NCBI RefSeq assembly: GCF_000226975.2
Contig: NZ_CP019286.1
Coordinates: 62,001-126,000, forward strand
Length of the DNA stretch: 64,000 nucleotides
Source of the DNA: Halobiforma lacisalsi AJ5
Lineage (GTDB): Archaea; Halobacteriota; Halobacteria; Halobacteriales; Natrialbaceae
Reading direction: 5' to 3'
Both the position numbers and the translations under genes were made by a program. This document shows, piece by piece, positions 8,117 through 47,167 of this stretch (position 1 is its first letter; each line of letters opens with the position of its first letter). A model generated the notes under the pieces. That model ran no database searches and had not been told where the DNA came from. It saw nothing but the letters and a program-made list of their open reading frames with translations.

Positions 8117-8165
8117 ATCCCCTGATAGGTGACCAGCCCGGAAAAGTCTAGTGTGCAGCCACACT

Positions 8166-8216: not shown

Positions 8217-8229
8217 CAGATACTCCCGC

Positions 8230-8751: not shown

Positions 8752-8901
8752 ACCGTTCTATACGAGGTATAATCCGAATAGTACTGCGCCAGCGTGGATG
8801 GCCACTAATCGGCGTGATCACTATTCATGGGCCTGTATAGCCGAGAACGAGATAGTGAAATTAGTCCTGAAGACGAGTGACGGTCCCAACGACAGGCTGG
8901 A

Positions 8902-18551: not shown

Positions 18552-18552
18552 T

Positions 18553-19548: not shown

Positions 19549-19550
19549 AG

Positions 19551-20099: not shown

Positions 20100-20207
20100 G
20101 AGAAGATAAAATGACAATTTGAGTTCAAGGCCATCAATTATTACCTGATATGATATTCACTTTCTAATACTTATTACTTGCTCTACCCACAGAGGAAATT
20201 GAGTATA

Positions 20208-23036: not shown

Positions 23037-23050
23037 AAATGGGGGTCAGA

Positions 23051-23863: not shown

Positions 23864-23872
23864 GTCCAGTAT

Positions 23873-24898: not shown

Positions 24899-24918
24899 TG
24901 GTATTCAGGTGGATGAGT

Positions 24919-27054: not shown

Positions 27055-27872
27055 GATGTATCTGCCCGTGGTGGATTCTGTTCCCGGAGGTTGAGGAACC
27101 CAAACCCGTGTTCACGACGTTGTCCGATCCCTGCATCTAGCGCTAGATTTAGGTGATACCGATGTGTTTCGTCCCGGACTCGATAGCCAAGCCGCCACTT
27201 CGAGAGGATGACTGTCCGATCAACAGCTGTGGCCGGTTGGAAGTGAATCGAGTATGTGACGTCGTCTTTGATCGGCTCGATTTGGTTAAACAGGGGTTCG
27301 TCTACTTCAGTCGGACCATCGTAGTATTCATCACCAAATTGCTCGTGAGTTCGCTGGAGCGATCGGCGGATTGTCGCTTGGAGGGGTTCCATTCCGTGCT
27401 TTGGTCTCCAGAAGAGCTTGGTCTCTGACTCGCCGGACTCTATTTCCGTGGTATCCAACCCATGTTCTTCCGCTAGCTGGCGGGTGAGTGCACAGAATAC
27501 GCCCGTCCCAGTATCCATACGGCCAGTCGAGCCTGCTTCACCAACTTGGGGTGCATGGCCGGTGATATCCGCCACTTCAAAACGCATCTGCCCGACCTCG
27601 AACTCACGGTTCCGGCTAAAATGGGCAATGAGTTCATCCAAGAGGTCGCGACGCGGGGAAGCGATTCGGATATACCGACGATCACCCTCTTCAATTGGGC
27701 CCCACGGAAAGATATTCGAGAACGAAAAGCCGACCCCATGGTGTGTGTCATGGACCTCAGCGTATTCATCCGTGTTCTCGAGTGCACGCCAAATGCGGCC
27801 CCGGATTTTGTGATGTGCAGCAGTATCGTAGGCTGCATCCGCGACCGCATCCAGTGCGAGTTCGATACGCAT
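27051..27872 (-). CDS. cas6: Cas6 crRNA-processing endonuclease
   Basis: 273 residues: two RAMP-like ferredoxin folds and the C-terminal glycine loop [16 protein letters not shown] His-rich segment [15 protein letters not shown] (~41-55) is where the general-base His of haloarchaeal Cas6 is expected. It cuts pre-crRNA in each repeat. It is the first cas gene; 27873-27984 upstream holds an AT-rich stretch with a TATA-like TAGTAATTTA on this strand and then the trailer end of array 2. Confidence 0.94.
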
Positions 27873-27984
27873 CCGTCAGACCACCTGATTATTCCTACTG
27901 TTTAATGCCACGTTGATATCACTAAATTACTAACATATGAAACTATTGGGCCGAGGTTGGAATCGATTTCATCGCCGCGACTGC

Positions 27985-30900: not shown

Positions 30901-31555
30901 GCTGACTGGGCTGGGCTTAATCGCTTCGACACTGACAGCTTCAATCCCACAAGGGTTCGTCTGAAACCCCGTTCGTTAGGGCCGTCTCACCAAGGCAAGA
31001 GTAGCTTCAATCCCACAAGGGTTCGTCTGAAACGTTTCCACCTGCGGACGTAGAGACGGCCGTAACGGTGCTTCAATCCCACAAGGGTTCGTCTGAAACG
31101 ATAGTATGATAGTGTGTTAGGGGAGTTCTTTGAGCTTCAATCCCACAAGGGTTCGTCTGAAACTCCGCGACCAACTCGAGCGTTCCCGGCTCGAGATCGC
31201 TTCAATCCCACAAGGGTTCGTCTGAAACGGATCTCCCGACCGCCGTCGCGCAACTCCTCGAGCGAGCTTCAATCCCACAAGGGTTCGTCTGAAACCCAAC
31301 GACGGTAACACGGTCGATTTCCGCGGCGCGTGCTTCAATCCCACAAGGGTTCGTCTGAAACACGACGAGCTCACCGAGGAACTCCTGCTCGAAGCCGCTT
31401 CAATCCCACAAGGGTTCGTCTGAAACGGTGACTGCCCCACCCCACCCTGCCCCTTTTAGGTGCTTCAATCCCACAAGGGTTCGTCTGAAACCGTGCTCGC
31501 CGTCGGCCTCGAAGCGCTCGTACCAGCTTCAATCCCACAAGGGTTCGTCTGAAAC
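27985..31555 (-). CRISPR. CRISPR array 2, type I-B, 55 repeats and 54 spacers
   Basis: Fifty-five 30-bp repeats, identical to array 1 in consensus and orientation. Leader side is the high-coordinate end, so transcription runs toward cas6. The trailer repeat at 27985-28014 differs in its first two bases, and the repeat at 29362-29391 ends GAAAT on the plus strand. Spacers are about 33-38 nt. The spacer at 28213-28249 is repeated exactly at 28475-28511. Spacers at 28804-28839 and 29656-29691 are related variants. None of the short open frames that cross the repeats is a real gene. Confidence 0.98.
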
Positions 31556-31660
31556 CCGCCAACATTCCGGCGGATAAGCGGATAATACGGGCGGTCTCAC
31601 AAAGTCATTTCCATCGACCCTCAATTCCCCTTCTACCCCCGAGGGGTCGATGGAAATTCG
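31556..31660 (-). promoter_or_regulatory. Leader of CRISPR array 2
   Basis: It matches leader 1 closely. A hairpin CCGCC (31556-31560)/GGCGG (31569-31573) abuts the first repeat, followed by ATAATACGGGCGG, CTCACAAAGTC and a perfect inverted repeat with 14-nt arms at 31607-31620 and 31644-31657 around a pyrimidine-rich loop. On the minus strand a TATA-like box lies about 25-30 nt upstream of the first repeat. It runs right up to a decayed IS1595 gene, so its outer boundary may have been cut. Confidence 0.85.
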
Positions 31661-32128: not shown

Positions 32129-33279
32129 CTACTGGAAGTTACGACTGGTCGGGATGAGCGGATCGCGGTTTAACTCCCGGACGACCCCGTGGAGAAACGC
32201 ATCTCCGAACGTGAACTCAACGGGGAGTGCTCGCCCGCCACGGCGTGGCCGGGCGAGCACGGCCACTGTAAGACCAGCCACAACTGCTCTAACAAGAAGC
32301 CGACCCCCACGTAGAAGAGACGAATCGTCGTTGACGGTGTTGTCGTCACTGCACGCGCCTCACGGAACTTCTCGTAGCTCTTTTCGATCCGTGATCGCTT
32401 GTTGTAGATCGTCGCAACCTGCGCCGGCGTCCGGTCTTTCAGACCGTACGCCGCGTATCCGGTCGCCTTCACGCCAGACTTTCCACGGTCACCGTTCTGG
32501 TAGGTAACGTTCACTGCCATCGGAAACGTCTGTTCGTGCTCTTTCCCCTCACAAATCGTCTCCTCGGTCATGTATGACGCTGTTACGGAGAGCTTCTTTC
32601 GGATCGACGCCTTCCCGGTCTTGACCGGGAAGACTGGCGGTGCACTCTCCCGAAGGACGCCAATCAGCTTCCCAACGTAGGCGTCTCGATCCATGAGAAT
32701 GCGGTCGATCTCGAATGGATACGTCTCGACGCGGGCGAGCAGGCGCTCGACCGCGTCGGCCTTGCTATCTTCGCCAGCAACCGGTTCAACCGCGAGTGTC
32801 AGCGGCTTTCCCTGCGCAATCACGAACGCTGTGCAGTAACGATGACACTGGGTAGTCCCGTCCCGAGCAGCCATCCGTCTGGTCTCGCCGTCACTGCTGG
32901 GAGTTCCGTGGAACGGGTTGTCCATGAAGTCGATGCAGACGGTTCTCGACCTGTGGCGGTCGAGAACCGTCATCGCCAGCGTAGCGAGAATATCGTTGAC
33001 GGAGTCTAGCATCGGGTCTTTCTGGATCGTGTGGAGCCAATCCATGACGGGCTCTCTATTGGGCGTTTCCTCTGTGTTGGTCGTGACGCCGTTGACAGAG
33101 GTTGTCCCAGCAGCGGCTCGAAGAACGACTTCCATGATATCGCCGGGATCGAGGGGCGAACCCTCGATCCCCGGCATCGGAATCAACAGGAGCAGCTCCA
33201 GAGAAAGAGCCTTGAGTTGCCGGTTCGAAATGAACTCGTCTGGATCAGTAAGTACCTGCTTGAGTTTTGGAATGTTCAT
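32129..33279 (-). pseudogene. ISH3-family transposase, frameshifted near its 3' end
   Basis: From the ATG at 33279 the frame encodes an ISH3-type DDE transposase (CIDFMDNPFHG, RILMDRDAYVG, NKRSRIEKSYEKFREA) as far as LEQLWLVLQW. A missing base near 32262, in a run of G on the coding strand, shifts the frame. The original C-terminus AVLARPRRGGRALPVEF...PTSRNFQ can be read in the next phase to a stop at 32129. The 3' terminal repeat is not seen, and the element abuts the IS1595 fragment. It is probably inactive. Confidence 0.8.
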
Positions 33280-33420: not shown

Positions 33421-33585
33421 TCACTGCGCACTGAACGGCTCGAACGCAGGTCGGATATCTGGGGATGACTGGACGGAAATCCCGAACAGTTCCGTGAATA
33501 GAGCCGACTCGAACCATGCTTCAGTCGGTTGGAAAATCTGACCGGGGACAATTGCTGGACCAATGACGCCCCTGTAGCGGATCTC
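33421..33585 (-). pseudogene. Possible C-terminal remnant of a lost gene
   Basis: A minus-strand frame ending at 33421 reads RYRGVIGPAIVPGQIFQPTE followed by AWFESALFTELFGISVQSSP and ends RPAFEPFSAQ. It has protein-like composition but no start of its own; it begins where the gene at 33584 ends. It may be what remains of a gene cut by rearrangement. No family is recognised, and chance coding is possible. Confidence 0.25.
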
Positions 33586-34435
33586 AGTCGACGATCGTAA
33601 TATCTCCGTTGGTCGTCTCAAAGTGCAAATCGTTTGTCCCCTCGCCGATAACCGCTTCGAGTTCCTCGTCGGTTCGGGTTGCGACGCTCGCCCGGTCGCT
33701 CTCGAACTCGATCTCGCCGTTGGTCGTCGAGACGGTGACGGTCGTATCGACGGCATCACCGAGCGTGCAGTCGATCTCTCCGTTCGTCGACTCGAATGTC
33801 ACGTCGCCGTCGAGTTCGTCCGTCTCGAGAGCGACGTCGCCGTTCGTCGTCTCGATCACTGTCTCAGCAGCGAGGGCCTCGACGACGGCGTCGATATCAC
33901 CGTTCGTAGAGTTGAGACCCGCGATATTCGAGCTATCCACGTCGATCGTTCCGTTGGTAGTACTCGCGGTTACGGTCGCTTCGATATCCCGCGCGTCGAT
34001 AGCCCCGTTTACCGTCTCGAGTACCGCCCGCTCGAGTTCGTGTGGCACAGTAAGTACGATTTCGGAGTCCGGTCTGGAGTCGGGCGTCAGCCCGAGTCGC
34101 TCCGTGATCGTTTGCTCGTAGTCGACCGTCACATCAAGGGTGTTGGTACTCCCGTCAACCGTTAACGTCGTCCGGTCTAGAGAACGTACCGAACCGGACT
34201 GTTCGACTTCGAGTTCGACCGTTTCGCGGTCAGCACCGATTACCGAAACGGAACCAACGTCAGTAGCTATGTCGATTTCGGCGGCATCATAGGTTTCGTT
34301 GAACGTTTCCGTCGTGTGTTCCTCGCTTTTCTCGTCAGCCAGTTGCCGGGACGCGATCCCGCCGATCGCGAGTCCGCCGACTGAGACGGCAGCACCTGCA
34401 ATAACGGCTCGTCGACGAGTGATATCGAAATTCAT
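33584..34435 (-). CDS. DUF4097-like beta-repeat exported protein
   Basis: 283 residues. The N-terminus (ITRRRAVIAGAAVSVGGLAIGG) is Tat-like, so the protein is probably exported. The body is a right-handed beta-solenoid of repeats ending in TNG(T/D/E)I(D/E): TVNGAID, TTNGTIDV, STNGDIDA, TTNGDVAL, STNGEIDC, TTNGEIEF, TTNGDITI. These are typical of DUF4097 (putative adhesin) proteins. It has its own promoter region (34436-34500) and is divergent from the lanthipeptide precursor at 34660. Confidence 0.8.
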   Translation of the reverse strand: MNFDITRRRAVIAGAAVSVGGLAIGGIASRQLADEKSEEHTTETFNETYDAAEIDIATDVGSVSVIGADRETVELEVEQSGSVRSLDRTTLTVDGSTNTLDVTVDYEQTITERLGLTPDSRPDSEIVLTVPHELERAVLETVNGAIDARDIEATVTASTTNGTIDVDSSNIAGLNSTNGDIDAVVEALAAETVIETTNGDVALETDELDGDVTFESTNGEIDCTLGDAVDTTVTVSTTNGEIEFESDRASVATRTDEELEAVIGEGTNDLHFETTNGDITIVD

Positions 34436-34659
34436 ACGGGGAGATCACCTTCGTAGGCTAACAGTAGACGCCCTCGGTCAAATAACTTTATAGTCAGACA
34501 ACAAAAGTCCGGTGACAGTAACTGAAACAACTTCACTCGGAACTGTTCCCGCACCTGCCGACGGATCGCTCCGCCAGCACACACTCGGTCCGCCGCTCCT
34601 GTTCGTTCGATTACTGATGATAGAAACGAATAAAGTATTGTGATACTAACGTTTGATCG

Positions 34660-34857
34660 ATGTCAGGAATACAGTCCTCGTTCGGTATGACGTACAACGA
34701 ACGCGACGATGCGCTACGAGCGATATTCGACGAGCGATTCGGAGCATTCCCCTCGAAAGAGGCGGGGCCGATTATCTCGAACGGCTGTACCGGATCGTGT
34801 CTCTGTACGGTGTTTGATTGTGACTGCGAACCGTCCTGCAACGAGTGTACCGGCTAG
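34660..34857 (+). CDS. Lanthipeptide precursor 1 (Cys-rich)
   Basis: 65 residues. The leader shares SSFGMTYNERDDALRAIFDE with the other four precursors of the cluster (SFGM, then IFDERF). The C-terminal ~30 residues hold seven Cys with Ser and Thr (NGCTGSCLCTVFDCDCEPSC). A likely leader end is KEAG, by comparison with KKAG in precursors 2 and 3. LanM would dehydrate Ser/Thr and close thioether rings. A TATA-like AATAAAGT (34629-34636) lies about 28 nt before the ATG, giving a leaderless transcript. Function of the product is unknown; an antimicrobial role is inference. Confidence 0.82.
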   Translation: MSGIQSSFGMTYNERDDALRAIFDERFGAFPSKEAGPIISNGCTGSCLCTVFDCDCEPSCNECTG

Positions 34858-35006
34858 CGATCGGAGCGTCGCTCTGGAGCCCGTCGGCCCCGCTTCGACC
34901 GAAGATAGACCCGACGAGCGCGACCGATCCTTCCGCCGGCGAACCGCCGGCTGTTGACGTTTCAGACCTGACAGCGGAACCGTGCGAAACTGCGGTCGCA
35001 TAATGG

Positions 35007-35020
35007 TAGAAAAATTAAAG
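35007..35020 (+). promoter_or_regulatory. Core promoter of lanthipeptide precursor 2, shared by all five
   Basis: TAGAAAAATTAAAG sits about 29 nt (box centre) before the ATG. The same design occurs before precursor 1 (34621-34636), precursor 3 (35323-35336), precursor 4 (AATATTAAGT, minus strand, centre near 43416) and precursor 5 (TAGAAAAAATTAAG, minus strand, 43798-43811). Each has the box centre 28-29 nt from its start codon. This is a haloarchaeal TATA/BRE in leaderless spacing. Common control of the five genes is inferred. Confidence 0.65.
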
Positions 35021-35045
35021 TTAATTATCGTACAACTATCGGCTG

Positions 35046-35228
35046 ATGTCTACTCAGCAGGCATCCTTCGGAATGGCGCACAAGCAGCGAGACAGCGAAC
35101 TGAAGGTGATCTTCGACGATCAGTTCGAAAACTGGACCAAGAAAGCCGGAATCGCATCGCTGGATTGTACCGGCTCGTGTCTCTGTTCACTTAGTTGTGA
35201 CTGCGAGACGTGCGGCGGCGAGTGCTGA
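35046..35228 (+). CDS. Lanthipeptide precursor 2 (Cys-rich)
   Basis: 60 residues. Leader: MSTQQASFGMAHKQRDSEL then IFDDQFENWTKKAG. Core: IASLDCTGSCLCSLSCDCET followed by CGGEC, with seven Cys and about six Ser/Thr. Nearly identical to precursor 3. Cleavage after the AG is plausible by analogy with GG/GA leaders of class II lanthipeptides, though no peptidase is encoded nearby. Its own promoter is at 35007-35020. Confidence 0.85.
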   Translation: MSTQQASFGMAHKQRDSELKVIFDDQFENWTKKAGIASLDCTGSCLCSLSCDCETCGGEC

Positions 35229-35361
35229 CTGAACCGCACCGCCATCGAGAGCCCTAATCCATTTTTAAATCCGTCGCGCTTTGCGTTCGCAGTACCAGCT
35301 ACATGTGTATTGAGAATAATTATAGAAAAACTAAAGTTAATTATCGTACAACTATCGGCCG

Positions 35362-35547
35362 ATGTCTACTCAGCAGGCATCCTTCGGAATGGCGCACAAG
35401 CAGCGAGACAGCGAACTGAAGGCGATTTTCGACGACCAGTTCGAAAACTGGACCAAGAAGGCCGGAATCGCGACGCTGGATTGTACCGGCTCGTGTCTCT
35501 GTTCGCTTAGTTGCGACTGCGAGACGTGCGGCGGAGAATGCAATTAA
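35362..35547 (+). CDS. Lanthipeptide precursor 3 (Cys-rich)
   Basis: 61 residues, differing from precursor 2 at only a few positions (V to A before IFDD, S to T in the core start IATLDC, and an extra final Asn). It has seven Cys in the core. With precursor 2 it could form a pair as in two-component lanthipeptides, but their near identity argues for simple gene dosage or diversification. The ABC exporter gene follows after 152 nt. Confidence 0.85.
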   Translation: MSTQQASFGMAHKQRDSELKAIFDDQFENWTKKAGIATLDCTGSCLCSLSCDCETCGGECN

Positions 35548-35699
35548 GAGCCGCTGCGACCCTCCCAAATTCAACCAATTTTATTACACGATAGAATATT
35601 AACAATAATGAAAGTCAGGTTTGGAAATAGGAAGCCGATTATAGACAGTATACGATAGACACGATCATAATATTAAGACCACTACCATCAATAGTAACG

Positions 35700-36632
35700 A
35701 TGCCCGCGATTAGAACAGACGGACTGACGAAACGGTTTGGACGATCGATAGTCGCAGTCGAGAACGTGAGTTTCGAGGTCGAACGGGGGGAAATATTCGG
35801 ATTTTTGGGTCCGAACGGGGCGGGAAAGTCGACGACTATCGATCTCTTACTTGGCTTTCTCACACCGACATCGGGCGAAGCGTACCTGCTCGGGCGCGAG
35901 GTGAGCGCACGATCCGTTCGAGTACGGAAACGAGTCGGAATCCTTCCCGAAGGTGTGCCCCCGTACGCTCGATTAACTGCGCGCGAGCACCTCGAGTTCG
36001 TCGCCGACTGTAAGGGTGTCGAGGAAGATATCGACGAACTCCTCGCAGATATCGGCCTCGTGCCGGCTGCAGATCGAAAAGTAGGCGAGTTTTCGAAGGG
36101 GATGACCCAACGACTCCGGCTGGGGATGGCCCTGGTCGGCGACCCGGACGTGCTGATCCTCGACGAACCCTCGTCGGGACTCGATCCGACGGGCATCTCC
36201 GAAATGCGAGAGTTACTCCGAGAGCGAGCGGCGGCCGGAGCCACCGTGTTCTTTTCGAGCCACATCCTGTCCGAGGTCGAGGAGCTCTGTGACCGCATCG
36301 GGATCCTCAACGACGGCCAATTGGTAGCCGTCGACACGATCGATGAACTCCGTGCCGTCGCAGCACCCGAAACGACGCTCTCGATCGTAGTCGGAAACGC
36401 CGACTGCGACCCTCTCGACGTGCTAGCAGCCCATGAGGCCGTTTCCGATGTCTGGAAGGACGACGACCGTTTCTGTGCGTCGGTCGACCGCGGCGAAAAG
36501 GCGAGCGTCTTGGCGGCCCTCGAGAACGACGGCATCACCGTTGACGACTTTTCGGTCGACGAAGCCTCGTTAGAGGATCTCTTTACCGCGTATATGGACG
36601 GCAATCGGCGCGCACGGGAGGTGGAATCATGA
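35700..36632 (+). CDS. ABC transporter ATP-binding protein (first exporter)
   Basis: 310 residues: Walker A GPNGAGKST (~39-47), signature region EFSKGMTQRLRLGMALVGDP, Walker B VLILDEPSSGLDPTG, H-loop FFSSHILSE. There is no N-terminal C39 peptidase domain, so it is not a LanT-type bifunctional exporter. It pairs with the permease whose ATG overlaps its stop (ATGA). Within the lanthipeptide cluster it is a candidate exporter or self-protection pump. A TATA-like AATATTAAGA lies about 28 nt before the start. Confidence 0.9.
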   Translation: MPAIRTDGLTKRFGRSIVAVENVSFEVERGEIFGFLGPNGAGKSTTIDLLLGFLTPTSGEAYLLGREVSARSVRVRKRVGILPEGVPPYARLTAREHLEFVADCKGVEEDIDELLADIGLVPAADRKVGEFSKGMTQRLRLGMALVGDPDVLILDEPSSGLDPTGISEMRELLRERAAAGATVFFSSHILSEVEELCDRIGILNDGQLVAVDTIDELRAVAAPETTLSIVVGNADCDPLDVLAAHEAVSDVWKDDDRFCASVDRGEKASVLAALENDGITVDDFSVDEASLEDLFTAYMDGNRRAREVES

Positions 36633-37471
36633 ACTGGGTCGTCATCGCTCGAAGGGAGTTTCGGGACGTCCGACGGTCGAAAGCGTTGTGGGGGGCAGTT
36701 GGGGGATTCGCGGTCTTCCTCGGTTTCATACTCGTGAGCGGGCAGGGACGAACGGCGCCCGACACGGCGGCTCTTTCCAGTCTCGTCGGAATCCTCTCGT
36801 TTTTCTTACCACTCATGATCCTGGCGATCGGTTATCCCGCGATCACCGGTGAACGGGAGTCGGGGAGCATCAAATACTTGCTCGGACTTCCGAACACGCG
36901 GCTGGAGGTGTTCGCCGGCAAGGTTATCGGACGAACAGTGATCGCGATAGTCGCGGTTTCGATCCTCCTCACCGTCAGCGCGGTCGTCCTTCGGGTCTGG
37001 CACGGTAGCTTTCCGATGCTCGAGTACGCCGGTTTTGCACTTTTGACGCTGTACTTTACGGTCATTTGGATTGGGATCAGCGTCGGCGTTTCGGCGATGT
37101 GTGCCGCCCGCGGACGGGCGCTCGCCGCGATGTTGGGGATTTACCTGGGCGGCGGTATCCTGTGGGCTGTCCCCCAGCTCACTCCGCAGGCCAGTTTCGC
37201 CTACCTCGTGGAAACCGTCCTTGGACTCGATCCCGCACCGCAACTGTACGATTTCGTCTTGCACCTCAGTCCGTCGTTTACGTACATCATCGCCACCAAC
37301 GGCCTCGCACTCGGAATCAGGGACGACAATCCGGAGATTTACGCGGGACACTACACCGACGGCCATCCGGTGTACCTCCAGGATTGGTTCATGCTCGTCC
37401 TGCTGCTCGTCTGGCTGGTGGTGCCGCTCAGCATCGGCTACCTTCGGTTCCGGAGCGCCGATTCCGTGTGA
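36629..37471 (+). CDS. ABC-2-type permease (first exporter)
   Basis: 280 residues with about six transmembrane helices: near 22-45 (ALWGAVGGFAVFLGFILVSG), 58-80, 105-135, 140-165, 170-190 and the C-terminal LVLLLVWLVVPLSIGYLRF. The arrangement is the NosY/ABC-2 permease type. It is translationally coupled to the ATPase gene. It would dimerise to form the channel for lanthipeptide export or for immunity; which of the two is unknown. Confidence 0.85.
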   Translation: MNWVVIARREFRDVRRSKALWGAVGGFAVFLGFILVSGQGRTAPDTAALSSLVGILSFFLPLMILAIGYPAITGERESGSIKYLLGLPNTRLEVFAGKVIGRTVIAIVAVSILLTVSAVVLRVWHGSFPMLEYAGFALLTLYFTVIWIGISVGVSAMCAARGRALAAMLGIYLGGGILWAVPQLTPQASFAYLVETVLGLDPAPQLYDFVLHLSPSFTYIIATNGLALGIRDDNPEIYAGHYTDGHPVYLQDWFMLVLLLVWLVVPLSIGYLRFRSADSV

Positions 37472-37607
37472 AAAACGAAACGCGCCCCGCCGCTGATCGT
37501 TACCCGCTCGAGCGGTGCGCGAGAGCGACACGTCGGCGAGAACATCTTATACAGGCTACAATTAAGAAAATGTTTTATATTCAAAATTTGTATATTTACC
37601 TGAATTT

Positions 37608-40600
37608 ATGTCGAAGACGGAATCTGGCGTATTCTCCGACGAGCACAAGCGGTTGATCGTCGGTCGTGCACAAACGCTCCTCGAGCGGATCGATGCGGGA
37701 GACTCGCTGGAGCCGAGCGGGCTGAGTGAGGACGAGAACGAGGAGATCTTCGAGGAGTGGGAAGAGTTGTTTCCCAGCGAGGAAGCGTTCGAACGACGGT
37801 TAGAACGGGAAGGTATTACGAAAGCGGAATGCGAGGACGCCATCGCCTCCGACAAGCTCGCAGAGGACGAACCGCTACCCGAGTGGATAGAGCAAGTCGA
37901 GAACTTAGCCGCCTGGATCCTCGCTGGCGACCCCGACGACTACCGGGCACCGTCGACCGCTGCGGACGAGCCGGACTCCGGTGACACGGACGAACGTCCG
38001 TTTCCGGAACTGTCGGCAGCAGTGGGAGCGTACACCCGCACTCGACTCGCGGACGAACGCGTCGGCAAGATCCTCTCCGAAACGGCGATCGAGGAGATGA
38101 CGTCGTGGTTCCAGATCCGGTTCGAGGAACGGTTCATCCGGATCCTCTTCGTCGAATTCAAGACGTTCACCGCGGCACACGACGAGGACCGAGCGTTCGC
38201 CGACGCCGACGACTTCGAGGAACTCCCGACGGAGTACTACGAACGGTTCATCGAGTATCTCTTTACGGGCGGATTCGTCGACTTGTGTCAGGAGTACCCG
38301 ATGTTCGCGCGCCTGGTGGCGGTACAGATCCAGCAGTGGGTCGCCCACCTTGAGGAGTTTTGCGAGCGCTTAGAGGCAGATCGGGAGCGACTCCGGGAGC
38401 GATTCAGCGACGGACACTCGCTCGGTCCCGTAACGGATCTCAAACCGCTCGCCGACGACACGCACGGTGACGGACGTGCGATTATGCGTGTCGAGTTCGA
38501 TTCCGGGGTTACGGTCGTCTACAAACCGAGGAGCGTCGACGCCGGGGAGACGTTCTATCGAGTCCTCGACCGGATCGAGGACCACCTACCGCTGCCGGAC
38601 TTCAAACGCCCGAACTATCTCTGTCGCGACGGGTACGGATGGATGGAGTGGATCGAATCGGCGGAGTGTCCCGACGAGAGTGCCGTTGAGCGATACTACA
38701 AACGGGCCGGCTCGCTGCTCTGTATCGGCTATTTCCTCGAATTCACGGACTGCCAGTTCGAGAATCTCATCGTTTCGGGCGAATATCCAGTTCTGGTCGA
38801 TGCCGAAACGATACTGCACCCCTACATCATCCCCGATCGGAAACCGACGGCGACCGGTACGAGTGCGGTGACCGACGACAGCGTTCTCTTGACGCTGCTG
38901 TTGCCGTACAGCATCGAGAACCTCGCCAGTGAGGACGCACCAGGAGATATGCCGTCGCGGATTTCCGGATTCAGCGTGGCGTCCGATCCGACGGACCTCG
39001 AGGGGGTCGAGTACTCCGTGATCAAGTGGCCGAACACTGACGTGATGTCGGTCGAGCGGGAGACGGCGTCCGCCGATCGAAGTGAGAACATCCCGAAAGT
39101 TGACAGCACTGATCACCCCCCCGAAGAGTATATCGACGAGATCGTCGACGGATTCGAGACGACCTACGAAACGGTACTAGAACTTCGGGACGACGGCCGG
39201 CTCTCGGACGAGATCGGAATGCCGAACGCGTTCGAAACGATCGAGAACCGCCTCGTCTACCGGCCGACCATGCGTTATACGGCCGTTATTAAGTCCCTCT
39301 CGTCGAGGAAGAATCTCCACAACGGTGCGAACTTCGGCGCCACGATCGACGCCCTCTCGGTGCCGCTCTGTACGGAGCAGGTCAGCAAGCCGCGCCCGTG
39401 GCACCTGTACGAAGCGGAACGAGCGGCGATAAAACGCCTCGATCCGCCCCGAATCACGAGTCAACCGGACGCGACCGAGATTCAACGAAACGGAGAGAAT
39501 CTCGGCGTCAAAGTGGACGCGTCCGGAATGGATCGCAGTCGAAAGCGGATCGAAGCCGCAACACGAGCGGATATGCGGAAACAGATCGAGTTCATCCGGG
39601 GGTGCTTCGGGAAATCGCCGGACCCGACGCGGCGGGACTCCGTCGTGTCGGTGACGGAGGCGGCGCAAGCGAACGACGACCAACTGTTGACCGAGGCGAC
39701 GGATCTGTTCGAACAGACGAAAGACGCTGCGTTCGAGGCCACCAGCGGGGTATACCACTGGGGATCGATCGCTCCGAAAAACGAGACGGAGCGTCTCACG
39801 GTTCGTCCTGCGAACGAATCGCTGTACTCGGGACGGATCGGTATCGCACTGTTCGGAGCCGCTCTCTACCGCGTCACCGACGAGCAACGGTATCGCGAGT
39901 TCGTGTTGGACACTATCGATCCCATTTACGACGCGATAACGTCGAAAACCGGGACTGCGACGCTTTACAACCACGGAGCCTGCAGCGGGATCGGATCGGT
40001 AGCATACGGACTCAGCACCATCAGCGACCTCCTCTCGGACGAATCAGTACTCGAGAATTCGGTGCGACTCGTCGAGAACTTCCCCGACGAACAGTACCAG
40101 GACGACACGATGTACGACGTCGCCGCCGGCTCCGCCGGAACAATCCTCGGAACGCTGAAACTCTACGAACGAACTGGCGACGGGGAACTGCTCTCGGCAG
40201 CCGAAAAGTGCGGTGACCACCTCCTCGAGTCGCGCGTCGAGACCGAAGGGAACGTCCGCACCTGGAAATCGTTCGACGACTCGCCGCCGTTGACCGGGTA
40301 CGCCCACGGCGCGAGCGGAATTGCGTATGCGTTGATTCGGCTCGCCGATGTAACCGGAACCGAGGCATACGCGGACGCCGCACTAGAAGCGCTCGAATAC
40401 GAGTCGGAGACCTACTCGGAGGCGGCCGGAAACTGGCCGGATCTCCGGAGTTGGACGAACAACGACTTCCTCGATCAGTGGTGTTACGGCCGAAGCGGTA
40501 TCGGGCTCGCACGGCTCGGAATGTCGGAATACGTTACTGACGATCGGGTTACGCGCGGCATCGAACGCGCGGTCGACGGAATGCCGGCGGGCGAGATAGA

Positions 40601-40868
40601 CGAACTGGATCACCTCTGCTGCGGGGAGGCCGGCCGAGCCGAGTTCCTGTTGGAGGTCGAACGACGACTTGGAAAGCGGCGCGGCGAAGCGCGGGCAGCC
40701 ATCGGGACGGTACTCGAGCGGAAACGACGGAACGGGACGTACCGAACGACAGCACACACCAGACAGATCCCGAATCCGACGTTCTTCCACGGCGTCTCCG
40801 GTATCGGATACACCTTACTGCGGATACTGGAGCCGGACGCACTTCCGTCGGTCCTCCTCTGGGAGTAA
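37608..40868 (+). CDS. lanM: Class II lanthipeptide synthetase LanM
   Basis: 1086 residues, the usual LanM length. The N-terminal dehydratase (DUF4135) has YKPRS with Lys306, TDCQFENLI at ~380-388 and VDAETIL nearby. The family pattern DxHxxN reads D381-C-Q383-F-E-N386, so the His is replaced by Gln. The C-terminal LanC cyclase (from ~740) has NHGACSGIG, YAHGASGIAYAL, WCYGRSGIGLA (Cys959), LCCGEAGRAEF (Cys1004/Cys1005) and FFHGVSGIGY. The zinc motif is Cys-Cys-Gly rather than Cys-His-Gly, as in the ProcM-like, substrate-tolerant LanMs. TATA-like TTTATAT at 37574-37580 fits a leaderless message. Confidence 0.94.
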   Translation: MSKTESGVFSDEHKRLIVGRAQTLLERIDAGDSLEPSGLSEDENEEIFEEWEELFPSEEAFERRLEREGITKAECEDAIASDKLAEDEPLPEWIEQVENLAAWILAGDPDDYRAPSTAADEPDSGDTDERPFPELSAAVGAYTRTRLADERVGKILSETAIEEMTSWFQIRFEERFIRILFVEFKTFTAAHDEDRAFADADDFEELPTEYYERFIEYLFTGGFVDLCQEYPMFARLVAVQIQQWVAHLEEFCERLEADRERLRERFSDGHSLGPVTDLKPLADDTHGDGRAIMRVEFDSGVTVVYKPRSVDAGETFYRVLDRIEDHLPLPDFKRPNYLCRDGYGWMEWIESAECPDESAVERYYKRAGSLLCIGYFLEFTDCQFENLIVSGEYPVLVDAETILHPYIIPDRKPTATGTSAVTDDSVLLTLLLPYSIENLASEDAPGDMPSRISGFSVASDPTDLEGVEYSVIKWPNTDVMSVERETASADRSENIPKVDSTDHPPEEYIDEIVDGFETTYETVLELRDDGRLSDEIGMPNAFETIENRLVYRPTMRYTAVIKSLSSRKNLHNGANFGATIDALSVPLCTEQVSKPRPWHLYEAERAAIKRLDPPRITSQPDATEIQRNGENLGVKVDASGMDRSRKRIEAATRADMRKQIEFIRGCFGKSPDPTRRDSVVSVTEAAQANDDQLLTEATDLFEQTKDAAFEATSGVYHWGSIAPKNETERLTVRPANESLYSGRIGIALFGAALYRVTDEQRYREFVLDTIDPIYDAITSKTGTATLYNHGACSGIGSVAYGLSTISDLLSDESVLENSVRLVENFPDEQYQDDTMYDVAAGSAGTILGTLKLYERTGDGELLSAAEKCGDHLLESRVETEGNVRTWKSFDDSPPLTGYAHGASGIAYALIRLADVTGTEAYADAALEALEYESETYSEAAGNWPDLRSWTNNDFLDQWCYGRSGIGLARLGMSEYVTDDRVTRGIERAVDGMPAGEIDELDHLCCGEAGRAEFLLEVERRLGKRRGEARAAIGTVLERKRRNGTYRTTAHTRQIPNPTFFHGVSGIGYTLLRILEPDALPSVLLWE

Positions 40869-41031
40869 CTCCCGAGGATTTCGGGTGCCGTCGTCGCACC
40901 GGGTTCCTTCGCACGTCCGACGAGTCGCTCCGTCGGTTCGACGATTGCGCTCGAGCGACGCGTACCATCAAAAAGTGTCAACAATACCGTAAACCTATTA
41001 CCATCCTGTTCATAATTTAACCAGTACTACA

Positions 41032-42078
41032 ATGGTTACAGAGGAACAACTCCTTTCGGATCACTCCCAGGACTCCCTGCAACGTCCCGTCAGGGAGCAA
41101 TCCGACGATCCCATCGTGACCGTAAGCGGCCTCGAAAAGGTATACGGTAAGGGGGACGACGCGGTTGAGGCCGTCAAGGGGGTCGACTTCGATATTCAGC
41201 CCGAGACGGTGGTGGGTATTCTCGGGCACAACGGCGCCGGGAAAACGACGGTCATCAAATCGATACTCGCGCTGATCGTTCCGACGTCGGGGACGGTTAC
41301 GGTCGACGGCATCGACGTTCACGAAAACACCAGCGCCGCGTACGAGAAGATGGGGGCGATGCTCGAAGGCGCACGGAACACGTACTGGCGGCTCACCGTC
41401 CGCGAGAACCTCGAGATCTTTTCCGTGATCGCCGGAAACGATTACCGAAAAAATTCCGCGCGGATCGACGAGCTCATCGCACAATTCAAACTCGGCGAGA
41501 AAGAAGACACGCCCGTTCGAGAGCTCTCTCGCGGCCAGAAGCAGAAAGTATCGCTGGCCTGCACGATGGTTCGGGACACCGACGTCGTGTTCCTCGACGA
41601 ACCGACACTGGGACTCGACGTCGAGAGTTCTCGGAAACTCCGGCGCGAACTTCGGCGGCTGGCCGATCACGACGGCCGAACGGTGTTGTTATCCAGCCAC
41701 GATATGGACGTCATCGAAGACGTTTGTGATCGGGTTATCATCATGAACCAGGGCCGAATCATTGCGGACGATACAGTCGATAACCTGATCGAACTATTCA
41801 ATACGCAAATGTACGAGGTGGTGATCGAAGGGCGACTCGACGCGGGGAGTAGACGGCAACTCGAATCGAATTTTGTCCTCAAAAACGTCGAAGAGCGTCC
41901 AGAGACGACGAAGTTCGAAGCGCAGATTACCGGCGAGGAGTTCTATAATCTGGTGGGGACTCTGGAACGGGCCGGGGTGACTATCGACTCGATCACCGAC
42001 CTCGAACCGGATTTCGACGAGATCTTTTTACGGCTATCTACTGACCGATCGCACGCGGAGGGGGTGAAACACTCGTGA
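41032..42078 (+). CDS. ABC transporter ATP-binding protein (second exporter)
   Basis: 348 residues: Walker A GHNGAGKTT (~68-76), signature ELSRGQKQKVSLACTM, Walker B VVFLDEPTLGLDVE, H-loop LLSSHDMDVIED, and a C-terminal regulatory domain. It has the drug-resistance type DrrA look and lacks a peptidase. Its stop overlaps the start of the permease. A second exporter pair in the same cluster suggests one for export and one for self-protection, by inference. Confidence 0.9.
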   Translation: MVTEEQLLSDHSQDSLQRPVREQSDDPIVTVSGLEKVYGKGDDAVEAVKGVDFDIQPETVVGILGHNGAGKTTVIKSILALIVPTSGTVTVDGIDVHENTSAAYEKMGAMLEGARNTYWRLTVRENLEIFSVIAGNDYRKNSARIDELIAQFKLGEKEDTPVRELSRGQKQKVSLACTMVRDTDVVFLDEPTLGLDVESSRKLRRELRRLADHDGRTVLLSSHDMDVIEDVCDRVIIMNQGRIIADDTVDNLIELFNTQMYEVVIEGRLDAGSRRQLESNFVLKNVEERPETTKFEAQITGEEFYNLVGTLERAGVTIDSITDLEPDFDEIFLRLSTDRSHAEGVKHS

Positions 42079-42929
42079 GCAACCGCGCTCATGAGACGAT
42101 CGATCGGTTGAAACCGCAGTTCACTTCCGATCGTGACGCAGGCCCGATGTTGCTGCTGTGGACGATGCTCCGCATGAAGGTTCTGTTGATGATCCGATAT
42201 CGGGTGGATTTCGTGGCGCAGATCATTACGATGTACCTCTTTTTTGTCGTCCTCTTCTTTGGCGGGAGGGCCGCCGTCGGGAGCATCGGCGGGGGCGGTA
42301 CAGGAGTAATCGGCGATACGCTCGACGCGATCATCGTCGGCTGGTTTCTCTGGACGATGGCCGTAAGTTCGTACTCGAGTCTGTCGAGCGAGGTGACACA
42401 AGAGTCACGATGGGGAACGCTCGAGCAATTGTTCATGTCGCCCCACGGGTTCGGAGTCGTTTTGACGACGAAGGTCGTCGTAAACGTTCTCACGAGTCTA
42501 CTGATGGGCGGCATCATGCTATCGCTGATGATCGTGACGACGGGCCGGACGCTCACAATCGATCTCCTGTCGGTCGTTCCGGTCGTCATACTGACGTTAA
42601 TGACGACAATCGGGCTCGGATACGTGTTCGCCGGCCTGACGCTCATCTACAAGAAGATTTCGAGCGTGAGGCAGATCGCGCAGTTCGGGCTGGTCGGTCT
42701 CATCGCGGCACCCGCCGTCGACGTTCCGTTGCTACGGGTCTTACCGCTCGTACAGGGGTCGGCGATGTTACAGGAGACGATGCGGGACGGCGTTCGGTTC
42801 TGGCAGTTCCCGATGCCCGAGATCGGGGTGCTCGTCGTAACGGCGCTCGTATACTGGGCCGCAGGATACGTACTATTCATGTTCTGTTCGCGTGTCGCTC
42901 GGAGACGCGGCGTGATGGCGCACTACTGA
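42075..42929 (+). CDS. ABC-2-type permease (second exporter)
   Basis: 284 residues from GTG at 42075, coupled to the ATPase. About six transmembrane helices: ~45-65 (DFVAQIITMYLFFVVLFFGG), ~82-103, 130-150, 162-185, 195-215 and the C-terminal ALVYWAAGYVLFMFCSRV. DrrB-like layout. It completes the second exporter. The gap 42930-43198 that follows has no supported gene. Confidence 0.85.
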   Translation: MSNRAHETIDRLKPQFTSDRDAGPMLLLWTMLRMKVLLMIRYRVDFVAQIITMYLFFVVLFFGGRAAVGSIGGGGTGVIGDTLDAIIVGWFLWTMAVSSYSSLSSEVTQESRWGTLEQLFMSPHGFGVVLTTKVVVNVLTSLLMGGIMLSLMIVTTGRTLTIDLLSVVPVVILTLMTTIGLGYVFAGLTLIYKKISSVRQIAQFGLVGLIAAPAVDVPLLRVLPLVQGSAMLQETMRDGVRFWQFPMPEIGVLVVTALVYWAAGYVLFMFCSRVARRRGVMAHY

Positions 42930-43198
42930 TCCGAACCGCATCGGTGCGGGCGTCGTTCGAGGCGGACTCCAAGTCCGGTCGGAACCGGCCGGATCTCGAG
43001 GCCGAATCAACTGCTACAAGCAACGAACACGGTCTCGACCGATTTCATCCCGACCGCTTGACGGTCGTGAGTGGTCGCCCGGTCGGCGTCGGGTCTTCGA
43101 GGCCGGTACCGTCGGGACGAATCCTCGCCCGAGTGGACCCGTCTCACGACTCGACCCGACCCCGACGCGAGCGAGGGGACGAAAAGCGGGACGATCCG

Positions 43199-43387
43199 TT
43201 AACACCCGCACCCGCAGGAATTACAGTTACAACCGATCGAACACCCGCACGAACAACTCCAATCGATCGTCAGCGACAACGGCAGATCGGTCACGTCTTC
43301 CGCACCGAACCGCTCGTCAAAGGCGGTTTTGAGGCTCGTATCTGTGACGTCGTACGACATTCCGAACGACTGTTGGGTAGCCGACAT
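43199..43387 (-). CDS. Lanthipeptide precursor 4 (Cys-rich)
   Basis: 62 residues from the ATG at 43387 (a GTG one codon upstream is possible). The leader keeps TQQSFGMSYD and the FDERFG motif. The core (SLTIDWSCSCGCSIGCNCNS, then CGCGC) has eight Cys, more than its Ser and Thr. It lies on the minus strand, converging toward the permease. A TATA-like box in an AT-rich stretch is centred about 29 nt upstream (near 43416). Confidence 0.82.
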   Translation of the reverse strand: MSATQQSFGMSYDVTDTSLKTAFDERFGAEDVTDLPLSLTIDWSCSCGCSIGCNCNSCGCGC

Positions 43388-43538
43388 CACGTATCGTTAG
43401 ATATTTGTTATACTTAATATTATCTATCAAAATATTTATTTAAAAGCGGTAGAAAACACGTACCCGGCGTCGCCGACGCGCGAGACGTCAGTGCGGGTTC
43501 GCCGAGTCGCGTCGTCCGTCAACGTAACAGACGGGCGA

Positions 43539-43772
43539 TTAACAGTCGCACCCGTAGGTCGACCCTTCGCAGGTGATCGAACAACCGCACGAGCAGGTGT
43601 CCGGACAAAGAAGGGTTGGAGCGCCGGTGCTGCAAGGGCCCGGGGTTATCGTTAGTCCGAGAATGCTGAGGTAATTCGTCTCGAACTTTTCGTCGAATAT
43701 CGATCGAATTCGCTCGTCGATTCGTCCCGACGTGCCGTATTTCATCCCAAATGTTATTTCGTTGACCGACAT
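43539..43772 (-). CDS. Lanthipeptide precursor 5 (Cys-rich, longest)
   Basis: 77 residues. The leader has ITFGMKYGTSGRIDERIRSI and FDEKFETN, matching the SFGM...IFDERF pattern. The core is longer and more varied (TPGPCSTGAPTLLCPDTCSC, then GCSITCEGSTYGCDC), with eight Cys and about nine Ser/Thr. It would give the richest ring pattern of the set. The promoter TAGAAAAAATTAAG lies 29 nt (centre) upstream. The ISH6 element starts 195 nt away. Confidence 0.82.
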   Translation of the reverse strand: MSVNEITFGMKYGTSGRIDERIRSIFDEKFETNYLSILGLTITPGPCSTGAPTLLCPDTCSCGCSITCEGSTYGCDC

Positions 43773-43966
43773 CAGAATGGTAATTGTATTTGAAATACTT
43801 AATTTTTTCTAACATAGCGGAGAAGGGTACCGATCTTCGACGCGAGATCGATAAGCTCGCAGAGAACATCGACAGTGCGACCCGGAACGCGTTCGAGCGG
43901 ACGGCGAACCGGGACTGCGCGGTCGAGGCCGTCGGGACGCGAAATCTTGGTCCCGTCCCAAAGCCC

Positions 43967-45340
43967 TCTAGAGTTCAGTAGCAACTGGTTCCCGTGAGGA
44001 ACGGGACGCCTCTGGTGTCCACCCAAGAGGTGTCCCATGCACGCCACAATCGACGTGCGGTTCACGATTAGCATCGACGAGGACAAAACGGTACCGCTCG
44101 CCACCCTTGCCGAGTTCGTTACCGAGCAGAACATCGAATCTGTACTGCTCGAATCGATGGTCGAGAGCCTCGACGCGAGCCGCGTCGAGGCGCTCTGTGG
44201 CCAGAAACACGCGACTGGCAACGGTGATCGTCGCTTCCAACGCGCTGGTACCGACACCCGCACAGCCGTTACAACCGCCGGTGAACACGAATTCGACCTT
44301 CACTACGTCGAAGATACCGCCGCTGGCCACGACGAATCCAGCTACTTTCGCCCCGTCGAAGGCATTCTCAGCTTCGACGGGGAAAACCGCTATCAGCAGG
44401 ACATCGCCGCGAAAAGCGTCGATCTCGCCACCTCGCTCAGCTATCGTGACGCTGCCGACCACCATCAATCGCCGCGCTAAAGAGTACGGCAGCAAGCTCA
44501 AGCAGTTCCTTCCAGAGTGTGTCGCTGACACAGATGCTGATGCGGTTATTCCTGACGGCACGAAGTGTCACAGTCAAGACGACGACCGTGCGTACCACTC
44601 TGTCCAGGCCACGCTCGGCGAAGACATTGCCGAAGAGTCACGCTCTCTGCTGGATCTCTCGGTGAACGCTGATTGGGACGAGACAGCCGCCGACCTCGAT
44701 GACATCGACGCAGTCACTGACGACGCGACGGTCGTCAGTGACGCTGAGGAGGGTATCGTCACGGCATTTACCGACGAAAATCGCACTCACCAACTGGATC
44801 TTGTCCACGTCGGTCGGACGCTTGATTACAACCTTTGGGACGACGGTGTGTTCTCCTTGGACCGGCGAAACGAGATTGTCTCGGAGGTGATCGACGAGGT
44901 GTTCCATCTGAAGAACTCGGTCGCCAAGCACCGGCCAGACGAGGAGTTCGCGGCGATCCGCGAGCGGATCGCGCGAACGACCGAGCGTATCGAGAAGACA
45001 GCGTGGCAGTTGAATCAGTACGGGTCCGAGAAGGCAGCGGGGTATCTTCGGCGGTGGCTGCCCTCGATCGTGACGTTTGCCGAGCAGGCTGTCGAGGGGT
45101 TCGAGGTGCCGTGGACCTCGAACCCCGTCGAACGGTTGATGGGCGAAGTCAGCAAGCGGTGCAAGAACCAGTGGATGCGATGGACAACAGAGGGATTAGA
45201 GGCGATACTCCAGCTTCGGCTGGTGAAGTACGCTGATCCAGAGCACTACCAGTCGTTCCTCGATGAACTGCTCCAGCGATCGACCAAAACAGCAATGAGC
45301 TGTGTCCTCTCAATTGAGAGCACCAGAGGCAAACTCTAGA
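43967..45340 (+). mobile_element. ISH6-type element, decayed
   Basis: The ends carry matching terminal bases: TCTAGAGTT at the left (from 43967) and, as the reverse complement, TCTAGAGTTTGCC at the right (to 45340). The transposase stop lies within the right repeat. No clear target-site duplication is seen at the flanks. The single transposase gene is frameshifted. The right end cuts into the next gene. Confidence 0.7.
44037..45339 (+). pseudogene. ISH6 transposase, broken by a small deletion
   Basis: The N-terminal part (MHATIDVRFTISIDEDKTVP ... LSYRDAAD) is read from 44037; near 44452-44465 the frame changes, and the remainder is read from TTINRRAKEYGSKLKQFLPE to the TAG at 45337. Judged from the family, about ten residues are missing at the joint. 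The catalytic-core blocks VVSDAEEGIV, DLVHVGRTLDYNLW and VPWTSNPVERLMGEVSKRCK remain, but the gene cannot give a full protein. Confidence 0.8.
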
Positions 45341-45934: not shown

Positions 45935-47167
45935 ATGTTTGTATTCCTTGGTTCGTACAGCGGAGGCGGCGGAGGAGGTTCGTCGGATGACGATGATTCG
46001 CAGGATGGAGGATCGACAGATGACCAGTCTCAGACAGGTATTGATGATTTCGGCGGAGATGGTGAAGAAGTCGATGATTCTGATAGCGGTGCGGCTGCTG
46101 CAGGTGCGGCCGGTGCCGCAGGTGCTGCAGCTGGTGCTGGTGCCGCTAGTGGTGCTGCTTCAGGTGCCGGTACGGGTGCTGGTACTGTTGTCGAACCACC
46201 GGAAGAAGAAGATCCTGAAGAGGGTGAGGACGAAGAGGAGTCAGAGCCTGAATCACCGGAGATAGAAGAACCAGATCTCGAAGAGTCGGAAACGGAGCCG
46301 GAAGACGACATCAATGAGCCTGAGACAGAGGAAGACACGGAAGAAGAGTACGATTTTGACGAGTCTGACGACGTTGAAGAGGATACGGAAGAAGAGGAAG
46401 ACGCCGACAAAGAAGACGAAGAGGATGAAGACGAGGACGAAGATAAGACAGTAGTCGTGGTCCAGGAAGTCGATGCGTTGAGCGCGATGTCCTGGGGCGT
46501 CCAGCCTGTGATGAAACGTGTTGAGGAGTGCTACGGCGAAGACGTTGAGGTCTTCTACAAACCTGCTCCTGTCCGAGAGATCGATCCTGAGCAGGAGAAA
46601 CAGAAGTGGAGAGACGTCGGTCAGCAGCTGGGTATGCCTGTTGATCCTTCGTTCTGCGACGAGGATCCACCGGAGTCCACGGACCTGGTCAACAAGGCGT
46701 TCGAGGCAGCTATCCAGCAGTACCGTGGAGAGGATTATATCCGGGCGTTGTGGCAGCAAGGTGTTGCAACTGGCCATGACATCAACGACAGGGAGGTCCT
46801 GATCGACCTGGCGTCAGATCTCGGGATGGATCGGGAGCGTTTCGAGGACGATTTAGATGAGGTGGAACTGGAGTCTGGTGAGCGTGACGAGCTTCCGTTC
46901 ACGTTTATGGAGATCCAGGGGAAGCCGGTGCCGAAGAATGGCCGTGTCCGGTACACGGATTTCAAGACTCAGTTCACGTTCCAGGGTATCGACGAGCAAA
47001 GTCCTCAGGACTTGCAGGGCTTCGTAGAGGAGCATGGTCCTGTAGCCACGCCCGAGGTCATGGAGGTCTACGGAATCCAGCGTCAGGAGGCGGTGCAACG
47101 TCTCCAGGATCTGGATAGTGTTTCGTCGTTCAAGGCCGGCGGCGAGCGCTTCTGGTATCTCGAGTAG
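45935..47167 (+). CDS. Acidic, Gly/Ala-rich protein with a DsbA-like domain
   Basis: 410 residues. The N-terminal ~175 are low-complexity: a Gly-run, Asp-rich stretch, an Ala/Gly repeat (AAAAGAAGAAGAAAGAGAAS) and a long Glu/Asp tract. Residues ~178-320 resemble a DsbA/FrnE-like thioredoxin fold (VDALSAMSWGVQPVMKRVEE, PSFCDEDPPES, DYIRALWQQGVATGHDINDR). The CxxC active site is absent, with SAMSWG in its place. A C-terminal ~75 residues look like a winged helix (TPEVMEVYGIQRQEAVQRLQ). Role unknown; it could be a scaffold protein. It is co-transcribed with the truncated gene before it. Confidence 0.6.
   Translation: MFVFLGSYSGGGGGGSSDDDDSQDGGSTDDQSQTGIDDFGGDGEEVDDSDSGAAAAGAAGAAGAAAGAGAASGAASGAGTGAGTVVEPPEEEDPEEGEDEEESEPESPEIEEPDLEESETEPEDDINEPETEEDTEEEYDFDESDDVEEDTEEEEDADKEDEEDEDEDEDKTVVVVQEVDALSAMSWGVQPVMKRVEECYGEDVEVFYKPAPVREIDPEQEKQKWRDVGQQLGMPVDPSFCDEDPPESTDLVNKAFEAAIQQYRGEDYIRALWQQGVATGHDINDREVLIDLASDLGMDRERFEDDLDEVELESGERDELPFTFMEIQGKPVPKNGRVRYTDFKTQFTFQGIDEQSPQDLQGFVEEHGPVATPEVMEVYGIQRQEAVQRLQDLDSVSSFKAGGERFWYLE

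Follow-up and report, generated by a model that had tools for sequence, protein, structure and literature searches.

A probable CxC-rich class II lanthipeptide cluster on a plasmid of the haloarchaeon Halobiforma lacisalsi AJ5

The plasmid-borne locus described here very probably encodes class II lanthipeptides and belongs to a CxC-rich family that has related arrays in other haloarchaea. It sits on the second replicon of Halobiforma lacisalsi AJ5 (contig NZ_CP019286.1; genome completeness 99.99%) and was analysed within a 64-kb window, the whole stretch of DNA under study. An earlier note had proposed a haloarchaeal class II lanthipeptide cluster with five precursors, one LanM and two ABC pairs; all of these genes were found (Table 1), and the LanM domains, the zinc ligands and the five precursors bore the proposal out. 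Membership of the class followed from a bifunctional LanM with its dehydratase residues and three zinc ligands, together with precursors built of a leader and a Ser/Thr-Cys core.

Results

The genes with their domains and catalytic residues, the promoter-like elements, the conservation and the uniqueness of LanM were established directly; Table 1 collects the features.

Table 1. Genes and promoter-like regions of the AJ5 cluster, in window coordinates
Feature	Coordinates	Strand	Description
Toastrack (DUF4097, LiaG-like) protein, Tat-type secreted	33584..34435	-	PF13349 E 6e-14
P1 promoter-like region	34622..34641	+	-38 to -19; promoter matrix
Precursor P1	34660..34857	+	65 aa; core ...NGCTGSCLCTVFDCDCEPSCNECTG; H. 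litoreus HMM E 3.7e-16; promoter rank 5/1282
P2 promoter-like region	35008..35027	+	promoter matrix
Precursor P2	35046..35228	+	60 aa; core ...LDCTGSCLCSLSCDCETCGGEC; HMM E 9.6e-20; promoter rank 2
P3 promoter-like region	35324..35343	+	promoter matrix
Precursor P3	35362..35547	+	61 aa; tandem copy of P2; HMM E 1.4e-19; promoter rank 4
ABC1 ATPase	35700..36632	+	PF00005, DrrA-like; accessory pair
ABC1 permease (ABC2_membrane_2)	36629..37471	+	PF12679 E 1e-38
LanM, class II lanthipeptide synthetase	37608..40868	+	1086 aa, one uninterrupted frame; TIGR03897, PF13575, PF05147
ABC2 ATPase	41032..42078	+	PF00005, DrrA-like; homologues 41-62% in most lan loci
ABC2 permease (ABC-2 type)	42075..42929	+	weak PF12698; homologues 36-59% beside same loci
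Precursor P4	43199..43387	-	62 aa; core ...WSCSCGCSIGCNCNSCGCGC; HMM E 1.2e-16; promoter rank 3
P4 promoter-like region	43406..43425	-	promoter matrix
Precursor P5	43539..43772	-	77 aa; core ...CSTGAPTLLCPDTCSCGCSITCEGSTYGCDC; HMM E 1.9e-4; promoter rank 1
P5 promoter-like region	43791..43810	-	promoter matrix

The description of five short genes with a common leader and Cys-rich cores was upheld by the ORFs and by their alignment, which contained 13 invariant columns (S2, F8-G9-M10, D16, F23-D24, F27 and, within the core, S46-C47-x-C49, C54 and C63), a degree of conservation beyond chance; the acidic leader pattern common to all five was FGM...L+..FDE.F. An HMM trained solely on Halorussus litoreus precursors and searched against the ORFs of the window recovered exactly P1–P5 (E 1e-19 to 2e-4; next match 0.42), and a promoter matrix derived from H. 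litoreus upstream regions alone, scored on the 1282 ATGs in the window, gave their start codons ranks 1–5. Since the independent HMM and the promoter matrix both recovered them, P1–P5 are real genes, and each apparently has its own promoter. The P4 start was placed at the ATG at 43387; the ORF list also permits a GTG one codon upstream. No additional precursors were detected elsewhere in the genome by a genome-wide search. The profile check suggested earlier succeeded for LanM but not for P1–P5, which gave no Nif11 or other family match above cut-off in the profile search; a TIGR04117 match on P5, whose 24.9 bits fell short of the cut-off (50), was discarded as chance.

The cores contain 7–8 Cys per about 20–30 residues. 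They had been called diverse, which overstated the case: there are five, but P2 and P3 are near-copies with almost identical cores, and an S-C-x-C-[ST] head is common to all. P3 also duplicates the P2 promoter (repeat unit about 35001–35220, offset 316 bp), and the codon differences between the two genes, 8 synonymous and 2 non-synonymous, indicated that the protein sequence is under purifying selection. Counted from the first core Cys onward, Cys outnumber Ser/Thr in four of the five precursors, so that some Cys are probably disulfides or free thiols beside thioethers; the number of rings is uncertain because the cores offer few Ser/Thr per Cys. This Cys density, together with the metallothionein-like CxC pairs, would also fit Cys-rich zinc- or metal-binding microproteins of the CPxCG zinc-finger or metallothionein type, lying next to lanM incidentally. 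We consider that reading very unlikely, as the CxxC spacing of zinc fingers was strongly depleted (7 versus 17.9 in shuffles), on which ground zinc-finger microproteins were rejected, whereas [ST]CxC was enriched (19 versus 4.7 in shuffles, indicative only, the sequences being related). Moreover, the common leader recurs in H. litoreus with LanM, the ABC pairs and the promoter, and a generic FD..F leader box is also present in precursor ORFs with archalan alpha- or larlan-matching cores.

LanM matched TIGR03897 with 761 bits (cut-off 304) and combines a DUF4135 dehydratase (PF13575) with a LanC-like cyclase (PF05147). The intact frame, the domains and an alignment to 42 other LanMs confirmed the reported length and the zinc set C959/C1004/C1005. 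With CylM D252 H254 K274 D347 H349 N352 D364 R506 T512 as the dehydratase reference, the kinase/elimination residues D284 H286 K306 D381 N386 D398 R548 T554 were present, and the sole non-conserved position was H349, replaced by Q383. The replacement is a weak concern because Gln is common here in haloarchaeal LanMs and CylM H349A retains slow activity (PMC4550811). As this is the only LanM and the only LanC-domain protein in the nearly complete assembly, the earlier suggestion that one enzyme would act on all five precursors is well supported on genomic grounds, and the shared leader and promoter point to the same conclusion.

A decaying or silent cluster, in which LanM and the exporters were kept while the precursors fell out of use, might be suspected from the IS elements flanking the cluster on both sides and from split or truncated LanMs in related genomes. 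Such decay is highly improbable here: every frame is intact, the catalytic residues are retained, P2 and P3 show purifying selection, and the promoter-like elements are intact.

The earlier note had also taken the Cys-Cys-Gly (CCG) motif to mark a substrate-tolerant enzyme, and this claim failed. The three-Cys zinc set was present in 26 of 31 haloarchaeal LanMs and CHG in none, and many of the CCG enzymes adjoin one precursor, including those at loci with cores matching archalan alpha and larlan, which are characterised single-precursor products (PMC10105419, PMC12144867). We therefore rejected CCG, lineage-wide in haloarchaea and often beside a single precursor, as a sign of tolerance. Haloarchaeal lan loci mostly had one precursor, or none found. 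The label ProcM-like survived for the zinc-ligand chemistry only; it failed for the leader, which is not of the Nif11 type. In a tree with 11 bacterial LanMs other than ProcM, cyanobacterial (Nostoc) CCG enzymes among them, all 31 archaeal LanMs lay on one side of a branch with support 100, as a clade of their own. The prochlorosin system of Prochlorococcus MIT9313 resembles the AJ5 cluster in its CCG zinc site and in using one LanM for several precursors; ProcA, however, combines a Nif11 leader with hypervariable cores, whereas in the AJ5 precursors the leader is of a different kind and the head of the core is conserved. A ProcM-type diversity engine, with a CCG enzyme evolved for hypervariable cores, could explain the CCG ligands, the several precursors per LanM and the eighth H. 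litoreus precursor on a separate contig, but we regard it as unlikely given the distribution of CCG, the non-Nif11 leader, the separate archaeal clade and the shared core head, with a core identity (0.35) only moderately under that of the leader (0.47).

The two ABC pairs claimed for the cluster proved to be ABC-2-type ATPase/permease pairs (35700–37471 and 41032–42929). Of the partner genes in haloarchaeal lan loci, ABC2 was conserved most frequently, with an ABC2-like pair beside most lanM genes; it is the likely exporter of the product. The ABC1 ATPase and permease occurred together only in L042, L047 (=L073) and L054 among the lan loci compared, and may possibly serve self-protection. The Toastrack protein, whose LiaG/LiaX matches were below cut-off, is a candidate envelope sensor or self-protection factor. 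It has a DUF4097 counterpart adjoining the H. litoreus array, a link that comprises two loci and weak similarity. The C39-peptidase exporter LanT is typical of bacterial clusters and is no requirement of the class. A PF03412 search found no C39 peptidase in the genome, ABC-2-type pairs being present instead, and the leader would thus be removed by a host protease outside the cluster.

The closest counterpart was found in H. litoreus HD8-51 (NZ_KZ859514.1; L047/L073), whose LanM is 56% identical, carries the same CCG set and is sister to the AJ5 enzyme (SH-aLRT 98). Both ABC pairs, the DUF4097 neighbour and the promoter type are shared, and the seven precursors there have the AJ5-type leader and S/T-C-x-C-[ST] cores; they differ in forming one array on one strand, with one more precursor on a contig lacking LanM. 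No reported product of this array was found in the main texts consulted; the litlans appear to derive from the other H. litoreus LanM locus (L066), which has a PSASM..CC core. Genome G059 carries the AJ5 set of LanM, ABC1, ABC2 and CxC precursor; a single precursor is present there, at a distance of 8.6 kb from its LanM. More distant is Halocatena salina plasmid unnamed2 (NZ_CP096021.1), where a 53% identical LanM, an ABC2-like pair and two precursor-like ORFs were found, but the cores are less Cys-rich and no ABC1 pair was found.

LanM enzymes were rightly said to be known from some haloarchaea, as archalans alpha/beta/gamma, medlans, larlans, sallans, ciblans, pellan and litlans are characterised haloarchaeal members of class II. 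Activity against haloarchaea is documented for characterised archaeal lanthipeptides of this class, and archalan gamma has a disulfide (PMC10105419, PMC12144867). The LanM class is common to them and to AJ5. The generic leader box [FYL]D..[FY] is also found in precursors whose cores match characterised products, among them loci with archalan alpha or medlan/larlan-type cores, several of which have an ABC2-like pair. As printed, however, the characterised cores have few Cys (up to about four), against 7–8 in AJ5, where CxC recurs within the cores and one LanM is accompanied by several precursors. The CxC pattern is thus unusual relative to characterised products, as had been claimed, but recurs in H. 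litoreus and G059.

Discussion

For peptide modification, ring pattern, export route, leader cleavage and activity we infer the following course. Each precursor gene would probably be transcribed into a leaderless mRNA, starting at a promoter of its own, and the single LanM would bind the common acidic leader, phosphorylate core Ser/Thr and then eliminate them to Dha/Dhb, after which its three-Cys zinc site would close (methyl)lanthionine rings by adding Cys thiols. Leftover Cys probably stay thiols or disulfides around the S-C-x-C-[ST] head. The ABC2 pair would export the product; self-protection is plausibly the task of ABC1 and the Toastrack protein. In the lar cluster, larA and larM alone gave trace product, which was ascribed to host peptidases (PMC12144867). 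The likely role of the product is antagonism against other haloarchaea. A remote prospect is that the single enzyme makes a cocktail of CxC-rich peptides which, once mature and stapled by lanthionine, bind metals or act in redox chemistry, with a thioether head that is fixed and a thiol-rich tail that varies; if so, they would not be ordinary lantibiotics but metallophores, metallothionein-like and locked by thioethers.

The CxC-rich family is uncharacterised in the main texts consulted; what is new is the shared gene set, the Toastrack neighbour in two loci and the excess of Cys over nearby Ser/Thr in most cores. In haloarchaea, the CCG motif cannot serve to mark out substrate-tolerant enzymes. 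The analysis thus defines an uncharacterised Cys-rich archaeal lanthipeptide family in which one enzyme would serve several precursors, names candidate exporter and self-protection genes, and does so in a group already amenable to heterologous expression in Haloferax volcanii.

Precursor genes

P1-P5, the five short ORFs that the earlier note took for lanthipeptide precursors, are real precursor genes on four lines of evidence. An HMM built from six H. litoreus precursors, with the window sequences left out, returned P2, P3, P4, P1 and P5 as its five best window matches (E 9.6e-20 to 1.9e-4), the sixth-best having E 0.42. A promoter matrix from seven H. litoreus precursor upstream regions (positions -38 to -19) placed the five start codons at ranks 1-5 among 1282 window ATGs. 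The A/T-rich box of this matrix ends ~22 nt before the ATG, the distance expected for leaderless haloarchaeal transcripts, and P1-P5 transcripts are probably leaderless. P2 and P3 form a tandem copy, promoter included, differing at 8 synonymous and 2 non-synonymous codons. Finally, the family profile matched six of 391 haloarchaeal genomes searched (E <= 0.01), all six with a LanM match.

LanM and its zinc site

The window encodes one full-length class II LanM synthetase, and alignment confirmed its proposed zinc ligands Cys959, Cys1004 and Cys1005. The phosphorylation and elimination residues defined in CylM (PMC4550811) are kept except His349, which is Gln383 here and Gln in many haloarchaeal LanMs; the CylM H349A mutant retained slow activity (PMC4550811). 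Because this is the sole LanM and sole LanC-domain protein found in the assembly, modification of all five precursors, if it occurs, would be its work. To that extent the idea of one enzyme for five precursors stood, but reading the three-Cys (CCG) site as a mark of substrate tolerance failed. Among the bacterial LanMs with CCG are ProcM and SyncM, both highly promiscuous (PMC10027976). In an alignment of 31 full-length haloarchaeal LanMs, all three Cys are present in 26, Cys-Cys-His is absent throughout, and at least one ligand is missing from five; many haloarchaeal CCG loci have a single recognisable precursor, including those with cores matching archalan alpha (GCGFTCSPFSSW) and larlan (STCTY...CPTCDF). 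Thus, CCG in haloarchaea, on record for Halorussus (PMC10027976), is a clade trait and no evidence of tolerance. In the tree, a branch with support 100 divides the 31 archaeal LanMs from the 11 bacterial LanMs sampled. The cluster proved real and intact, of a kind already known: haloarchaeal class II lanthipeptides were first isolated in 2023 and expanded in 2025.

The LanMs of loci L057 and L059 (Halostagnicola sp. A-GB9-2) keep their dehydratase residues and still have a recognisable LanC domain, but all three zinc Cys are replaced by Ser/Ala/Asp. The precursor-like ORFs beside them are rich in Thr and contain little or no Cys (TTWTTVTTTTTTGTVD), and these LanMs are possibly dehydratase-only enzymes yielding linear Dhb-rich peptides. 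LanMs of several other haloarchaea are truncated or split, with a ~590-680-aa dehydratase standing alone without cyclase or with stop-broken frames; these are either pseudogenes or stand-alone dehydratases. Another haloarchaeal lan locus with several precursors, L050, has four, with CWFSCGLSCGLTG-type cores of a different family.

Core peptides

P1-P3 cores share CTGSCLC[ST], P4 and P5 share CSCGCSI.C, and all five contain S-C-x-C-[ST]. In ten cores, [ST]CxC occurred 19 times vs 4.7 in shuffles and CxxC 7 times vs 17.9, figures that are indicative only, as the cores are related. Cys:Ser/Thr ratios from the first core Cys on were 7:5 for each of P1-P3 and 8:9 for P5, and 8:4 for P4 counted from the preceding Ser; over all residues past the leader box they were 7:7 (P1-P3, each), 8:7 (P4) and 8:13 (P5). 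By these counts, P4 has more Cys than thioethers can take up, and the same probably holds for P1-P3. Archalan gamma, with one disulfide beside two thioethers (PMC12144867), is a precedent for non-thioether Cys. The CxC-rich core pattern, earlier called unusual, is so beside characterised archaeal products, but it recurs in H. litoreus and in the single precursor of genome G059 (ESCTCSIAC). Judged from main-text literature, this multi-precursor family seems uncharacterised; supplementary catalogues may already include its H. litoreus members.

Putative transport, protection and leader removal

An ABC2-pair homologue (identity about 36-62%) adjoins most haloarchaeal lanM genes, which makes ABC2 the best candidate exporter. 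The complete ABC1 pair occurred, among lan loci compared, only at L042, L047 (=L073, the H. litoreus array) and L054. In both the window and H. litoreus, the array has as its neighbour a Toastrack (DUF4097) protein that bears a Tat-type signal; since LiaX-type proteins are described as mediating peptide-antibiotic resistance in enterococci (PMC10269926), self-protection is a reasonable guess, no more. The genome search found no encoded C39 peptidase; the peptidases at work in archaeal systems appear to be host enzymes encoded elsewhere than in the cluster (PMC12144867). A protein with a very acidic N-terminal half and a DsbA-like thioredoxin fold (PF01323, E 3.6e-8), the fold having no obvious CxxC, is encoded 2.2 kb from P5.

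Coordinates of features in the window and in other haloarchaeal loci
Feature	Coordinates	Strand
CRISPR repeats bracketing cas genes	17159-31565	
Cas1	18553-19554	
Cas3	20208-23036	
ISH3-family transposase, one flank	32170-33279	
Toastrack	33584-34435	-
P1	34660-34857	+
P2	35046-35228	+
P3	35362-35547	+
ABC1 ATPase/permease	35700-37471	+
LanM	37608-40868	+
ABC2 ATPase/permease	41032-42929	+
P4	43199-43387	-
P5	43539-43772	-
ISH6-family transposase, other flank	44197-45339	
DsbA-like protein	45935-47167	
L057, LanM and precursor-like ORFs	7597-10896 and 4533-4966	
L059, LanM and precursor-like ORFs	7800-11039 and 4652-5088	
L050, four-precursor locus	7281-12089	
L075, truncated/split LanM	10123-12168	
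L076, truncated/split LanM	9998-12004	
L078, truncated/split LanM	10193-11956	
Genomes G150, G182, G307, G345, truncated/split LanM		
H. litoreus eighth precursor, MSETQTS...GGCTDSCLCW	L065 5370-5543 (G161:C13:103387)	
LanM fragments, window's genus	G052:C1:2269862-2271298	

Relatives and spread

The window belongs to a second replicon (216,196 bp of a 4.38-Mb genome), all 16S genes being on the 4.16-Mb contig; this second replicon also carries CRISPR repeats and cas genes, a short distance upstream of the lanthipeptide cluster. The eighth H. litoreus precursor lies at least about 40 kb away, on a contig that has no LanM, so the H. litoreus LanM may act on it in trans. Within the window's genus, one genome has only LanM fragments, which suggests LanM loss or decay in this genus. 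The nearest LanMs, from H. litoreus (56%) and a Halocatena salina plasmid (53%), belong to genera outside the window's family, and this, taken with the insertion sequences on both flanks and the location on a plasmid, fits horizontal transfer.
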